The notes under the pieces were generated by a model that saw only the letters and a program-made list of their open reading frames with translations, was not told the DNA's origin and made no database searches. The position numbers and the translations under genes are program-made. From Halalkaliarchaeum desulfuricum (GTDB lineage Archaea; Halobacteriota; Halobacteria; Halobacteriales; Haloferacaceae), in NCBI RefSeq assembly GCF_002952775.1, contig NZ_CP025066.1, positions 3,162,001 to 3,226,000 on the forward strand: 64,000 nucleotides of DNA, read 5' to 3'. Of this stretch, positions 47,625-57,193 are shown in pieces; the stretch's first letter is position 1; the number at the start of each line of letters is the position of its first letter.

Positions 47625-49508
47625 TCACTCCACCGTCCGTCCGAGTCGCTCGGCTGCGCCGAAATGTTCGGGGTCGACCGGCGGATCCGTCCACGGGTCG
47701 TCCAGCGGCGTCGCCTCGTCGACGACGTCGAGGAGATCCAGTCGCTCCAGGCAGGCGCGAGTGGGACGGCCGTTCTTACCCCACTCCCGCATCGCGTAGT
47801 ACGCCTCGAGCATCCGGTCGAACTCCCCGGGGTCGATCGACTCTCCGGCGGCGGGACCGTCGTCGATGGGCGAGGTGAGCACAGTCGGGAGTTCGTCGTC
47901 CTCCCGGTCGAACCCCTCCCGGACGTTGAACAGCCGAACGAGCGTCCAGACCCGTTCGCCGATCCCGGCGAGTTCCGCGGGCGTGTACTCCAGGCCGATC
48001 GCCTCGAGCCACTCGGCGCCGAGGTCGCCCCACATCGTCTCGCCGGCGAAGTCGTCGGCCACCAGGCTCCACAGCACGGACCGGACGTCCTGTGCCACTG
48101 CGACCGCACGGGCGCGGTCGGCCGTCCCCCACCGGTCGGCGGCGAACACTTCCGTTTCGATCGGACGGGCCCGGCGGTGACAGCCGCCCCGGTCGCTCGT
48201 GGCGTACGCGAGCGCCATCCCGGCTGCGCCCCGCGGATCGTAGGAGGGCAGCTCCATCGACTTCACGGTCGGGATGAGGTCGTCGCCGCCATACGCCTCC
48301 GCAGCTGTATCGACGCCATCACCCAGGAGCGCGGGGAGTTCGGGCGGCCAGGGCGGCGACGCTTCCTCGGAGCGCCCCGGCGCGTCTTCGGTCCCGTAAG
48401 CGATCGCTTCGATCAGCCGGCGGATCCCCTCCTCGTCGCCGAACACGAGGTCGACGTCAACGAGCCCCTTCTCGCCGGCACGGACCGCCCACGCGACGGC
48501 GTTTCCCGCGGAGATCACGTCGACGCCGAGCCGGTCACAGACACCCCCCAGGGCCGCGACGGCGTCGAACTCGTCGATCCCGAGGCCGGCCCCCAGCGTC
48601 ATCGGCGTCGCCCCTCGGGGGACCGTCTCGCCCTCCTCGGTATCGATCCGGAACCCGCCGGGGACGGCGTCGTCGGGTCGTTCCCTGCCGGTCGATCGCT
48701 CGCGTGCCCGTTCGATCCCGATCTCGTCGGCACCGTCGAACCGGCTTCGTTTCCACCCCTCGGTGGGCAGCACGCCGACCTCATTCGCGAAGTCGATGCT
48801 CTCGAGGGTTTCGCCTGCGGCCTGCCAGCGGCCGACGTCGTGGTCCTCGTAGGCATCGGCGTACTTCTCGTGGAGCGTCTCGACGCTCGGCGGGAGCTCC
48901 GGCGGCCCATCGCGGGCGACGATCGCCTTCAGTCGCTTTGCGCCCATCACCGCCCCCGCGCCGCCGCGGCCGGCGTGGTGCTCGCCGCCGTCGGAGGCGA
49001 TCGTCGCGTACTCGACGCCCGATTCGCCGGCCGGGCCGACGCACGCAACCGCCGCGTCGGGGAACGCCGCGGCGGTCGTTGCCGCGTCCGCGCCCCAGGT
49101 CTCCGCCGGCGAAACCGTCGCCTCCCCGCCGGAGAGTTCGATCCGGACCGGCTCGTCGGCGGTGCCGACGACGATCAACCCGAGGGCGTCATCGAGCGAT
49201 CCCGAAAGCCGTGCTGCGAACTCGCCGCCGCTGTAGGAGTCGAGAAACGCGCCGGTGAGCGGAGATTTCGTCACGGCCGCATACCGCGATTCGCCCGGGA
49301 GATATCCCGACAGCGGACCGACGAAGAAGCCGAGGAGGTTCTCACAACCCCACGGATCCACACCCGCGGAAAGCTCCTCGTAGAGGTAGCGCGCGCCGAG
49401 CCCTTTGCCGCCGAGAAAGTCGCGTCGCCAGCGTTCCGGGACTGTCTCCCGTCGTACCGTTCCGGTCGTGAGATCGACCCGCAAAACTGCGTCCCGGGTG
49501 GAGGTCAT
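47625..49508 (-). CDS. Aldehyde:ferredoxin oxidoreductase-family protein lacking Fe-S cysteines
   Basis: A 627-residue AOR-fold protein. The N-terminal domain (VLRVDLTTGTVRRETVPERWRR, FLGGKGLGARYLYEEL, GFFVGPLSG, SYSGGEFAARL, AVMGAKRLKAIVA) matches the tungstopterin-binding domain. The rest (LGAGLGIDEFDAVAALGGVCDRLGVDVISAGNAVAWA, YATSDRGGCHRRARP) matches domains 2-3. But the CX2CX3C cluster motif is replaced by RERPDDAVPGGFR, and the last cluster Cys (usual DSLGxC) is replaced by QDVRSVLWSL. It may bind the pterin yet cannot carry the usual 4Fe-4S. Confidence 0.85.
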   Translation of the reverse strand: MTSTRDAVLRVDLTTGTVRRETVPERWRRDFLGGKGLGARYLYEELSAGVDPWGCENLLGFFVGPLSGYLPGESRYAAVTKSPLTGAFLDSYSGGEFAARLSGSLDDALGLIVVGTADEPVRIELSGGEATVSPAETWGADAATTAAAFPDAAVACVGPAGESGVEYATIASDGGEHHAGRGGAGAVMGAKRLKAIVARDGPPELPPSVETLHEKYADAYEDHDVGRWQAAGETLESIDFANEVGVLPTEGWKRSRFDGADEIGIERARERSTGRERPDDAVPGGFRIDTEEGETVPRGATPMTLGAGLGIDEFDAVAALGGVCDRLGVDVISAGNAVAWAVRAGEKGLVDVDLVFGDEEGIRRLIEAIAYGTEDAPGRSEEASPPWPPELPALLGDGVDTAAEAYGGDDLIPTVKSMELPSYDPRGAAGMALAYATSDRGGCHRRARPIETEVFAADRWGTADRARAVAVAQDVRSVLWSLVADDFAGETMWGDLGAEWLEAIGLEYTPAELAGIGERVWTLVRLFNVREGFDREDDELPTVLTSPIDDGPAAGESIDPGEFDRMLEAYYAMREWGKNGRPTRACLERLDLLDVVDEATPLDDPWTDPPVDPEHFGAAERLGRTVE

Positions 49509-49597
49509 TCACCTGAAAGTGGTCGATTACGCGGGTTAAACCTGTCGGGAAGCGAAAGAACTCGGTTCTCTGGATCCAACGCGTACCGGCAGCCAAA

Positions 49598-50587
49598 TCA
49601 GACCAGTCCGAGGAGACGCATCGCCGCGAAGAGCAGGTCGCCGTAGACGACGGCGACGACGAGGCCGACGAACATCGGGACGACGAACGGGAGTCCGGGC
49701 GAGACCCACACCCGGTCGCGTTCGATCAGCGTCTCGATCCCTTCCCGAAGCGATTCGGGCGTGGTTCCGTACGCCGGGCCGACCTCCTCGCGGAACCGCT
49801 GTGCCGCCCAGTCGTCGCCCGCCTCCGCGCCGGCGGAACGTCCGCCGTCAGTGACGGCCGGTCCGTCCGTCGACCGGGCGGAGACCGCGCCGTCGGTCGG
49901 GTCGTACGTCTCCCCGACGCTTTCCGGCTCCCGAAGCTCTTCGGGTCGGTCGACGAGTTCCTCGAAGGAGAGGCCGCGCCAGCGGAGATACATTCGAAGC
50001 GCATCGAGGTCCAGACCCCCCCTCGTGTAGCCGCTCCGGGTCTCGAACAGTCGGCCGTGGCGCGTGATCACCGACTCAACGGGAACCGGCCGGGCGAGAA
50101 ACATCACCGGGGAGATCCGTCCCGACAGAAGGTTTCCGAGCGCAAGCGCGATCGGATACGCCAGTCCGACCAGCACGGTGTTGGTGAGGATGGTGAGCGA
50201 GAAGACCCCGACGTTCGACATCACGACCGGGAGCGTCGGGAGCCACGCCACCGGGAGCCAGTAGGCCGGATACGTCGGATACACCACCGCAAGCGAGATC
50301 AGCGCCTTCGCGTCGGCACCGCCGAAACCGCCGATCCGCCAGAACAGATAGCCCAGCGGCGCGACGAAAAACAGGCTGATCGCGACCTGCACGAGGAACA
50401 GTCGATCGTTGACGCCCGCAAGCGGAAGCCGGGTCCACGACTCCCACGCGAGCGCGAGCAACCCCAGCGCGATCAGCGGCGGCCACAGCCGGTTCGGAAG
50501 GCGGCGGGTCCGGACGTCCCGGTAGGCCGCCCACGCGAACACGGGGACGACGACCAGTCGAAGCAGATCCGGCCCGGAGGCGATCAT
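49598..50587 (-). CDS. pibD: Prepilin/prearchaellin peptidase (A24 family, PibD/FlaK-like)
   Basis: A 329-residue integral membrane peptidase that removes the leader from type IV pilins and archaellins. The two catalytic aspartates are in AYRDVRTRRLPNRLW (about residue 22) and GGFGGADAKALISL (about residue 91). Six or more membrane helices are interrupted by a long acidic cytosolic insert (about residues 195-275), common in halophilic homologues. It supports pili and archaella encoded elsewhere. Confidence 0.9.
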   Translation of the reverse strand: MIASGPDLLRLVVVPVFAWAAYRDVRTRRLPNRLWPPLIALGLLALAWESWTRLPLAGVNDRLFLVQVAISLFFVAPLGYLFWRIGGFGGADAKALISLAVVYPTYPAYWLPVAWLPTLPVVMSNVGVFSLTILTNTVLVGLAYPIALALGNLLSGRISPVMFLARPVPVESVITRHGRLFETRSGYTRGGLDLDALRMYLRWRGLSFEELVDRPEELREPESVGETYDPTDGAVSARSTDGPAVTDGGRSAGAEAGDDWAAQRFREEVGPAYGTTPESLREGIETLIERDRVWVSPGLPFVVPMFVGLVVAVVYGDLLFAAMRLLGLV

Positions 50588-55377: not shown

Positions 55378-55468
55378 GTAACCGCGTATGGACGCCACGG
55401 GGCAAAAACTCCTCCGGCGATGCAGGGCGCAGGGCGCAGTCGGGCCGTTTCGACCGCTGCCGTCCCCC

Positions 55469-55846
55469 TTATTCGAGGTGTTCGACGAACTCGACGACGT
55501 AGCCGTTCGGATCGCAGACGAACGCCGCCCTGACGTCGATGTGATCCATCGTGACTGGTTCGACTTCGACCTCACAGCCGGTTTCCTCGACCACGTGTTC
55601 GTATGTCGCGTCTGTGTCCTCGACTTCGATCGCGACGTGATCGATGCCGGCTGGGTCCGGAACGGATTCGCCGTCGGGATCGTACTTGAACTGGATTTCG
55701 GCCCCCGACTCGGTTCCGACGTACACGTTTTCGACGCCATCGTCGGCCGTGAATCCCCAGACCCGATCGAGGTCGAGCACGTCGGTGTAGAACGCGAGTG
55801 TCGCTTCGAGGTCGTCGGTCCAGAGTGCCGTGTGGATGAGTTCCAT
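55469..55846 (-). CDS. VOC-family glyoxalase-like protein
   Basis: A 125-residue vicinal-oxygen-chelate protein: ELIHTALWTDDLEATLAFYTDVLDLDRVWGF (His4 as first ligand), then GIDHVAIEVEDTD and the last FVCDPNGYVVEFVEHLE with the Glu ligand. Lactoylglutathione lyase-like in layout, but glutathione is not known in this group, so another substrate is likely. It is divergent from the CobW-type gene by 111 bp. Confidence 0.9.
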   Translation of the reverse strand: MELIHTALWTDDLEATLAFYTDVLDLDRVWGFTADDGVENVYVGTESGAEIQFKYDPDGESVPDPAGIDHVAIEVEDTDATYEHVVEETGCEVEVEPVTMDHIDVRAAFVCDPNGYVVEFVEHLE

Positions 55847-55957
55847 GCGCGATCATCAAGGGCTGGCTGCATAACAGTTGAGGTGGGATCGCCCGAGGAG
55901 AGACGTCATCGAGGCGCACCCGTGGGATCAAGTAGCTCGGCGACCGATGAGCCTCCA

Positions 55958-57193
55958 ATGACCACGTCGAAGATTCCCGTCACGCTGCTCAGCGGGAGCC
56001 TCGGAGCCGGCAAGACGAGTACGCTGAACCACCTGCTCGTGAACGCCGGAAATCGCCGGATCGCGGTGCTGGTCAACGACATGGGAGAGATCAACATCGA
56101 CGCCGAACTGCTCTCGGCGGGCACGGACGTCGCCGCCGACGGCGGGATCGCCGAGCTGTCGAACGGTTGTATCTGCTGTGAGCGCCAGGACGACCTGGAG
56201 ACGGAGGTCGCCCGGCTCGCGGACGAACGAGACTTTGACTACCTGGTCGTCGAGGCGTCGGGAATAAGCGAGCCGGAACCGGTCGCCCGGCTGTTCACGA
56301 CCGCCTCCCGGGCGGCGGCCGCCTACGAGCTCGACACCCTCGCGACTGTCGTCGACGCGACGCAGTTCCTCGAGACGTTCGACGATAGCGAGACGGTCGA
56401 GCGCAAAACGGCCCCCGGGGCGGAAGACAGGCCACTCTCGGATCTCCTCGTCGAGCAGATCGAAACCGCCAACGTCCTGCTTTTGAACAAGTGCGATCTC
56501 GTCGACGACGAGGAACTCGAACTGGCCGAGGAACTGCTTTCGACGCTCAATCCCGGCGCGAAGGTGGTCCGGACCGTCCACGGGCAGATCGATCCCGAGG
56601 AGATTCTCGCTACTGGATGCTTCGACCCGGACAACCTCGGCGAGGTCGGCGGGGCGCCGACGTTCGAGATCGACCATCCCGAAGACGGACATCACGACCA
56701 CGAACACGATCACGACCACGATCACGCGACGCCCGAGCGAACGTACGGGATCACCTCGATCAGTTATCGGCGGCGCCGACCGTTCCACCCCGAGCGGCTG
56801 TGGGAGGTCGTGAACGACCTCCCGGGAGCGGTCGTCCGGTCGAAGGGACTGTGCTGGCTCGCGGGCCAGGACGACGTGGCAGTGTCGTACAGCCAGGCCG
56901 GCCCGACCGTGCGGTTCGAGGCCGTCGGGCCGTGGATCGCGGGGCTTCCGGAAATCGAACGGGACCTGTACCGCGACGGCAATCGCGACCTGCCGTGGGA
57001 CGACGAACACGGCGACCGCCGCACGGAACTCGTGTTCATCGGCCACGACGTCGACGACGCGGGGATCACAGAGCGTCTCGACGCCTGTCTCGTGACCGAC
57101 GACGAATGGGAGAACATGGGACGGAAACCCACCGATCAGGGGGCCGGGTATCCGACGGAAATCGGCGCGTCAGTCGAGATCGACCTCCGGTAG
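55958..57193 (+). CDS. CobW/COG0523-family GTPase (metallochaperone)
   Basis: A 411-residue G3E GTPase: Walker A SGSLGAGKTST (residues 11-21), NDMGEINID, the metal-binding CXCC motif in LSNGCICCERQDD (about residues 69-81), Walker B-like VVEASGISEPEPV, NKCDL for GTP specificity, and a His-rich loop HHDHEHDHDHDH (about residue 245). COG0523 proteins deliver Zn, Co or other metals to client enzymes. The start is the ATG before TTSKIPVTLLSG; the preceding frame is noncoding. Client unknown; no cobalamin synthesis gene is adjacent. Confidence 0.92.
   Translation: MTTSKIPVTLLSGSLGAGKTSTLNHLLVNAGNRRIAVLVNDMGEINIDAELLSAGTDVAADGGIAELSNGCICCERQDDLETEVARLADERDFDYLVVEASGISEPEPVARLFTTASRAAAAYELDTLATVVDATQFLETFDDSETVERKTAPGAEDRPLSDLLVEQIETANVLLLNKCDLVDDEELELAEELLSTLNPGAKVVRTVHGQIDPEEILATGCFDPDNLGEVGGAPTFEIDHPEDGHHDHEHDHDHDHATPERTYGITSISYRRRRPFHPERLWEVVNDLPGAVVRSKGLCWLAGQDDVAVSYSQAGPTVRFEAVGPWIAGLPEIERDLYRDGNRDLPWDDEHGDRRTELVFIGHDVDDAGITERLDACLVTDDEWENMGRKPTDQGAGYPTEIGASVEIDLR

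Follow-up and report, generated by a model that had tools for sequence, protein, structure and literature searches.

What does an aldehyde oxidoreductase (AOR) family protein do once the cysteines that hold its [4Fe-4S] cluster are gone? The question is raised by a gene in the window, by which we mean the whole 64,000-nucleotide stretch of Halalkaliarchaeum desulfuricum DNA that was analysed. A sequence-only reading of it had claimed that the product lost all four Fe-S cysteines, kept the tungstopterin domain and the family motifs, and would need another electron route or a different role. According to a 2025 review, all known AOR/WOR members hold a tungsten- or molybdenum-bis-pterin, which the tungstoenzymes set beside an Fe4S4 cluster (PMC12096430); this Fe4S4 rule is broken by a clade that more than half of the haloarchaeal genomes sampled contain. 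Our analysis confirms and extends the observation: the claim that electron transfer is lost stands, and the role has a concrete, testable candidate answer.

Loss of the four cluster ligands in a haloarchaeal clade

The gene, its two domains and the regions of the former ligands are the following.

47625..49508, minus strand: cysteine-less AOR-family gene, 627 aa plus stop
48909..49487, minus strand: AFOR_N (Pfam PF02730), residues 8-200, the AOR pterin-binding domain
47733..48872, minus strand: AFOR_C (Pfam PF01314), residues 213-592, domains 2 and 3
48648..48686, minus strand: degenerate CX2CX3C site RERPDDAVPGGFR, residues 275-287, located by the alignments
48048..48074, minus strand: LWSLVADDF, residues 479-487, with W480 at the D489 site and D485 at the C494 ligand site

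Domains and fold both place the 627-aa protein in the AOR/WOR superfamily by descent. AFOR_N (E-value 9e-57) and AFOR_C (1.8e-87) lie far above the gathering cut-offs and are its sole Pfam matches, no FdhD domain being found, and the closest solved structures in a structure-sequence search are 9MQX, 1AOR, 9G7J and 1B25. The AF2 model (pLDDT 92.6, pTM 0.93) superimposes on 1AOR with a Z of 48.8 and an rmsd of 1.9 over 573 residues, its best structural matches being AORs, FOR, WOR5 and BamB; as modelled, the protein retains the AOR fold. The alignment with Pyrococcus-type structures that the sequence-only reading had proposed as a check, performed with HMMER against 1AOR, 9MQX, 9G7J and 1B25 and with MAFFT including the 1AOR sequence, places no cysteine at any ligand site: C288, C291, C295 and C494 of Pyrococcus AOR correspond to D279, a gap, G284 and D485. 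The same is observed throughout the clade, in which none of the four sites of the 60 aligned rows holds a cysteine (0/240), so that the ligand set of an AOR/WOR oxidoreductase acting as an enzyme is missing from all of them. All four cysteines are present in 67/67 rows outside the clade (51 relatives, 8 haloarchaeal sister rows and 8 paralogues), and the five further AOR paralogues of the same genome each carry a complete ligand set. The C494 site is Asp and the D489 site Trp in 60/60 clade rows. The earlier placement of the last cluster cysteine at RSVLWSL was therefore right for the region, of which RSVLWSL is the start, but not for the exact site, which is the invariant D485 of LWSLVaDDF.

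Three other cysteines, C156, C324 and C443, are conserved within the clade, and they could speak for an AOR of the usual kind whose cluster motif is displaced or wrongly aligned. The cysteines of GGVCDRLG and RGGCHRR had been named as possible occupants of the cluster sites, but these (C324 and C443) align with C337 and C447 of Pyrococcus AOR, non-ligand positions at which 47 and 48, respectively, of the 59 four-cysteine rows (51 others and 8 sister rows) carry a cysteine alongside all four ligands. A displaced cluster served by other cysteines is thereby ruled out, and a sequencing accident is ruled out by the contrast between the clade and the 67 other rows. Comparison with the copy of a congener gives dN 0.051 and dS 0.335 (dN/dS ~0.15), which indicates purifying selection, and this, together with the conservation, rules out a decaying gene. 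With these ratios and the absence of every ligand against it, an ordinary or decaying AOR is hardly credible. As far as the sequences tell, the clade has lost its cluster ligands, and the loss is old and selected. An open frame of 660 aa (47664-49646, plus strand) overlaps the gene on the opposite strand; long opposite-strand open frames are common in high-GC haloarchaeal DNA.

The cysteine-less clade that had been suggested for search in other haloarchaea does exist. An orthologue is found in 104 of the 148 genomes of the window genome's family (E <= 1e-80; 105 matches, from which G123 was removed as it holds only the four-cysteine sister). At class level, 223/391 genomes have a match at 1e-100, or 218 after removal of five sister-like ones (G123, G166, G251, G318 and G375; best E 1e-121 to 1e-123), the partial or weak G309, G381 and G386 being retained. 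The 60 rows in which the cysteine sites were read are a subset of the 223 genomes; they include the near-copies L102, L105 and L127 (of L077, L068 and L062), dropped for the neighbour counts only, and the split gene L070 is excluded from both alignment and neighbour counts. A scan of named genomes found members in Natronomonas, Haloprofundus, Haladaptatus, Halolamina, Natrialba, Natrinema, Haloarcula, Halobaculum, Halorubrum, Halobacterium and others. In a tree built without the trait's own columns, with 31 rows of atypical amino-acid composition, the clade forms one side of a branch with a support of 100 (SH-aLRT, not bootstrap), and one state change suffices; among the sequences sampled, the tree establishes a monophyletic clade with a single loss.

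The sister is a four-cysteine haloarchaeal clade (for instance Haloferax marinum, L126, and L052-L058; L126 and L054 are identical), related at 43-44% identity over the full length. The two share DSYSGG and AYATSDRGxCHQRA, and D489 is already replaced in the sister, which differs in retaining all four cysteines and GPEYE. The sister clade has its own set of shared neighbours, among which formate dehydrogenase (FDH) was not found.

The pterin pocket and the active site

The positions R76, R182, D338, D343 and D489 are taken here to have roles at the AOR pterin, R182 presumably sitting in the loop by which Mg and the phosphates of the pterin are bound. The segments that bear on the pocket are the following.

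48609..48623, minus strand: VPRGA, residues 296-300, replacing AOR GPEYE (E311/Y312/E313 to R/G/A)
49251..49286, minus strand: kept pocket motif RYAAVTKSPLTG, residues 75-86
48960..48980, minus strand: kept HHAGRGG region, residues 177-183, preceded directly by the acidic E176 at the R182 site
48519..48539, minus strand: kept CDRLGVD, residues 324-330, with the D338 and D343 sites
48171..48197, minus strand: kept SDRGGCHRR, residues 438-446; H444 occupies the His448 site (His in 60/60)

The domain, as had been claimed, and the fold are kept, but the family motifs only in part. T243, H448 and D343 are retained in 60/60 clade rows, Y427 in 59/60 and R76 in 56/60; the D338 site is Asp in 54/60 and Asn in 6/60, and the columns that vary least within the clade include RYxxVTKSPLTG, AGRGG, CDRLG-D and RGxCHRR. 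The changes are equally consistent: the GPEYE positions read PRG(A/G) in nearly all rows, with Arg at the E311 site and Gly at the Y312 site in 60/60 and Ala (53) or Gly (7) at the E313 site, the Y452 site is mostly Arg, and the R182 site is Asp or Glu in 57/60, a replacement that could weaken binding of bis-MPT. Compared with AOR/WOR enzymes (Pyrococcus furiosus AOR, 1AOR; bacterial 9MQX and 9G7J), the clade has the same domains, fold (Z ~49) and pterin-pocket motifs, but it lacks the [4Fe-4S] ligands and E311/Y312/E313, and carries D489 to Trp and R182 to Asp or Glu. In the review, E313 is the proposed catalytic acid of AOR, T243, Y427 and H448 are further second-shell residues, and N93 and A183 are named as main-chain Mg ligands (PMC12096430). 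The second shell of an AOR/WOR enzyme is accordingly present at T243, H448 and mostly Y427, and absent at E313. The clades of YdhV and of class II benzoyl-CoA reductase (BamB) are likewise described there as being without the usual second-shell residues; they have an extra cysteine ligand at the metal, and it is by this description only that they are set apart here (PMC12096430).

Judged from the residues, both the electron exit and the acid-base group are gone, and selection acts on the fold and on most of the pocket. Of the two possibilities raised by the sequence-only reading, the loss of the acid-base site in addition to the electron exit favours a different role over another electron route.

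Linkage to formate dehydrogenases, MobA and YqeC

The genomic context adds what had been missed in the earlier reading, namely an association with FDH, MobA and YqeC that is absent from the window and is seen only in other genomes; in the window's own genus, none of the three was found near the gene. The neighbours within the window (nicotinate phosphoribosyltransferase, prepilin-peptidase-like and CstA-like) are common only to the congener or to a few loci, and they were discarded as uninformative. The survey comprised 57 de-duplicated loci of ~4 to 20 kb each, and its counts are lower bounds because the gene calls came from a simple script. FDH-alpha-like genes occur in 36/57 loci, YqeC in 20/57 and MobA in 18/57, the last on the opposite strand in 16 of the 18 and within 210 bp in 12. 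At the scale of whole genomes, FDH-I, II or III lies within 20 kb of the gene in at least 63 of the 104 family genomes (~1.8 expected; FDH-III positions taken among the matches listed), and YqeC lies within 10 kb in 55/104. Outside the family, FDH-I or II is within 20 kb in at least 40/83 genomes, by coordinates among the matches listed. The gene is thus linked to three FDH subfamilies, MobA and YqeC, and its link to formate dehydrogenases is new here.

The three subfamilies are distinct. FDH-I genes match the window genome's copy at 470673-472790 at 77-86%, and FDH-II genes match its copy at 1954037 at near 48%, one of those examined having a weak Tat signal match; FDH-III, of ~1105 aa, adjoins a NuoF-like gene. 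The TIGR01591 cut-off is passed by FDH-I and FDH-III, not by FDH-II. Within the family, the gene is present in 75/75 genomes with FDH-I and in 35/35 with FDH-II, and FDH-I or II is found in 90/104 gene-positive versus 0/44 gene-negative genomes. In seven gene-variable genera (g3, g5, g6, g10, g14, g16 and g27), FDH-I/II tracks the gene without exception; in two others (g25 and g28), no genome has FDH-I/II. Three gene-positive genomes that seemed free of FDH (G028, G120 and G129) do carry FDH-III. YqeC is present in 103/104 gene-positive family genomes and also in 15 without the gene. A second FDH-like paralogue served as control, since another AOR paralogue was too rare for this use (3/148 genomes at 1e-150): the gene is present in 31/40 genomes with it and 73/108 without it (p 0.31, the co-occurrence p-values ignoring phylogeny), and in the same family genomes the control was never found within 20 kb of the gene.

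The association is not strict. At class level the gene is present in 79/80 FDH-II and 144/170 FDH-I genomes, leaving one FDH-II and 26 FDH-I genomes without it; two genomes that lack the gene, G051 and G092, carry full-length FDH-III, and ~10 further gene-negative genomes carry shorter FDH-III relatives. FDH therefore does not depend on the gene in a strict one-to-one manner. FDH-I can evidently mature without the gene, and it is these 26 genomes that weigh most against the gene being indispensable. Linkage and co-occurrence, with these FDH-I and FDH-III exceptions, are what an accessory role for FDH would entail.

Genes for electron carriers are also found at these loci: a polyferredoxin with an FlpD domain (HdrA-like) in 17/57 and a NuoF-like gene in 8/57. 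They could serve a protein that is still an aldehyde oxidoreductase and whose electrons go straight to a partner docked close to its pterin. We regard this as very unlikely: both kinds of gene adjoin FDH and are for that reason better read as partners of FDH, and E313, the proposed catalytic acid according to the review (PMC12096430), is lost together with E311 and Y312. A NarJ-like chaperone gene (PF02613) is present in 10/57 loci.

A candidate role in cofactor handling

We propose that the best explanation for a protein that has a pterin pocket, lacks a redox relay and is encoded beside MobA, YqeC and FDHs of three kinds is a carrier or insertion helper. That it is a redox-dead AOR descendant handling the pterin cofactor of certain bis-MGD FDHs is quite possible, although we put it below an even chance. 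MobA adds GMP to make bis-MGD, the cofactor of FDH. Among the sequences sampled, the four [4Fe-4S] ligands disappeared in a single ancestor within Halobacteria, together with the Glu311-Tyr312-Glu313 portion of the active site, and strong selection has preserved most of the pterin pocket and, as modelled, the AOR fold. The starting point would have been a haloarchaeal tungsten aldehyde oxidoreductase. We infer that the protein would still bind, as cargo and not as catalyst, a pterin of W or Mo or its precursor, and that the cofactor may be protected, stored or passed on, the recipient being either apo formate dehydrogenase or the MobA/YqeC step; the direction of this hand-over and the partners in it are put forward in the same sense. 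The clients would be FDH-I and above all FDH-II. Several points count against a carrier: the genus of the window lacks the linkage; the R182 site holds an acidic residue, which may oppose a bound phosphate; and AORs hold bis-MPT and FDH uses bis-MGD, so that a nucleotide step lies between.

Two other readings address the same evidence. The protein could be a cofactor-free structural or regulatory subunit, or a folding chaperone, of FDH complexes that no longer binds metallopterin, as the pocket changes R182 to Asp or Glu and D489 to Trp and the linkage to three different FDH subfamilies would allow; the high invariance of RYxxVTKSPLTG, AGRGG, CDRLG-D and RGxCHRR, needless for a scaffold, makes this distinctly improbable. 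Alternatively, an active W- or Mo-pterin C1 enzyme without an Fe-S relay could hydrate, hydrolyse or isomerise a compound of the formyl or formaldehyde type, all without redox chemistry, and supply FDH with the product. H448, Y427 and T243 are kept, the invariant R298, G299, W480 and D485 could form a new active site, and besides the FDH linkage, formaldehyde-dehydrogenase-like genes lie nearby in 4/57 loci, which fits a metabolic role too and so counts against a carrier. Such an enzyme is nevertheless unlikely, if worth serious consideration, given the loss of E311/Y312/E313 and, in most rows, of Y452, and it leaves the adjoining MobA and YqeC unexplained; moreover, we know of no pathway gap for it to fill.

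The carrier or insertion helper that we favour would resemble known maturation systems in function only. The W-FDH of Methylorubrum needs MoeA1, MobB and FdhD (PMC13197769), and maturation by FdhD and MobA/MobB/MoeA likewise concerns the handling of the FDH cofactor; there is no sequence kinship, the cysteine-less protein matching only AOR models in Pfam. TorD/NarJ-type chaperones, an unrelated family, are similarly dedicated maturation helpers whose genes adjoin that of a bis-MGD enzyme. For YqeC, a likely accessory function for selenium-dependent molybdenum hydroxylases has been described (PMC2276186), and fdhD is described as near-systematically close to fdh operons, with archaeal exceptions (PMC10609526). 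No fdhD beside the genes was found among the 25 families listed for 63 of the 99 unassigned neighbour proteins of 210-340 aa, a search covering neighbour proteins only, in which a single match could be hidden. It is more doubtful, but conceivable, that a complete catalytic tungstoenzyme, stripped of its redox centre and of its catalytic acid, was reused across Halobacteria as an FDH metallopterin carrier or insertion factor, making it the first non-catalytic, cofactor-trafficking protein of the AOR family and perhaps a partner or replacement of known FDH maturation proteins. If cofactor handling for FDH is true, it would represent an enzyme-to-helper conversion among metalloenzymes and bear on archaeal FDH maturation, a question directly testable in culturable haloarchaea. 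The literature searched, seen in part and mostly outside subscription journals (including PMC12096430, PMC6365974, PMC10609526, PMC13197769, PMC2276186 and PMC5437934), yielded no description of the cysteine-less clade, which is no proof of absence.

Further observations concern the surroundings of the gene. The window's genome has two YqeC genes (G000:C1:2520639-2521274 and 1963483-1964103), neither near the cysteine-less AOR; in several genomes of genus g28, one YqeC adjoins the cysteine-less AOR, the second an FDH-like gene. A G3E/CobW-type GTPase frame is present in the window (55388-57190, plus strand), its congener copy matching ZigA/CobW models below cut-off, and the family occurs near the cysteine-less AOR in 6/57 loci. 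The alcohol dehydrogenases of the four loci are at L079:10882-12045, L087:3603-4769, L065:5435-6595 and L124:7655-8818; the first three match TIGR02819 (glutathione-independent formaldehyde dehydrogenase) best, below cut-off, and the one of L124 is assigned only by cluster and sequence start. A ~190-aa protein without a Pfam match lies near FDH-I in 8/57 loci (for example L079:8144-8740 and L121:13012-13689). Finally, a DUF7124 gene is found in 17/57 loci, in 17/17 on the same strand and offset by -103 to +111 bp from the point where the alignment of the AOR gene ends; lying directly downstream, as at L077:10099-11034, it is a candidate partner.
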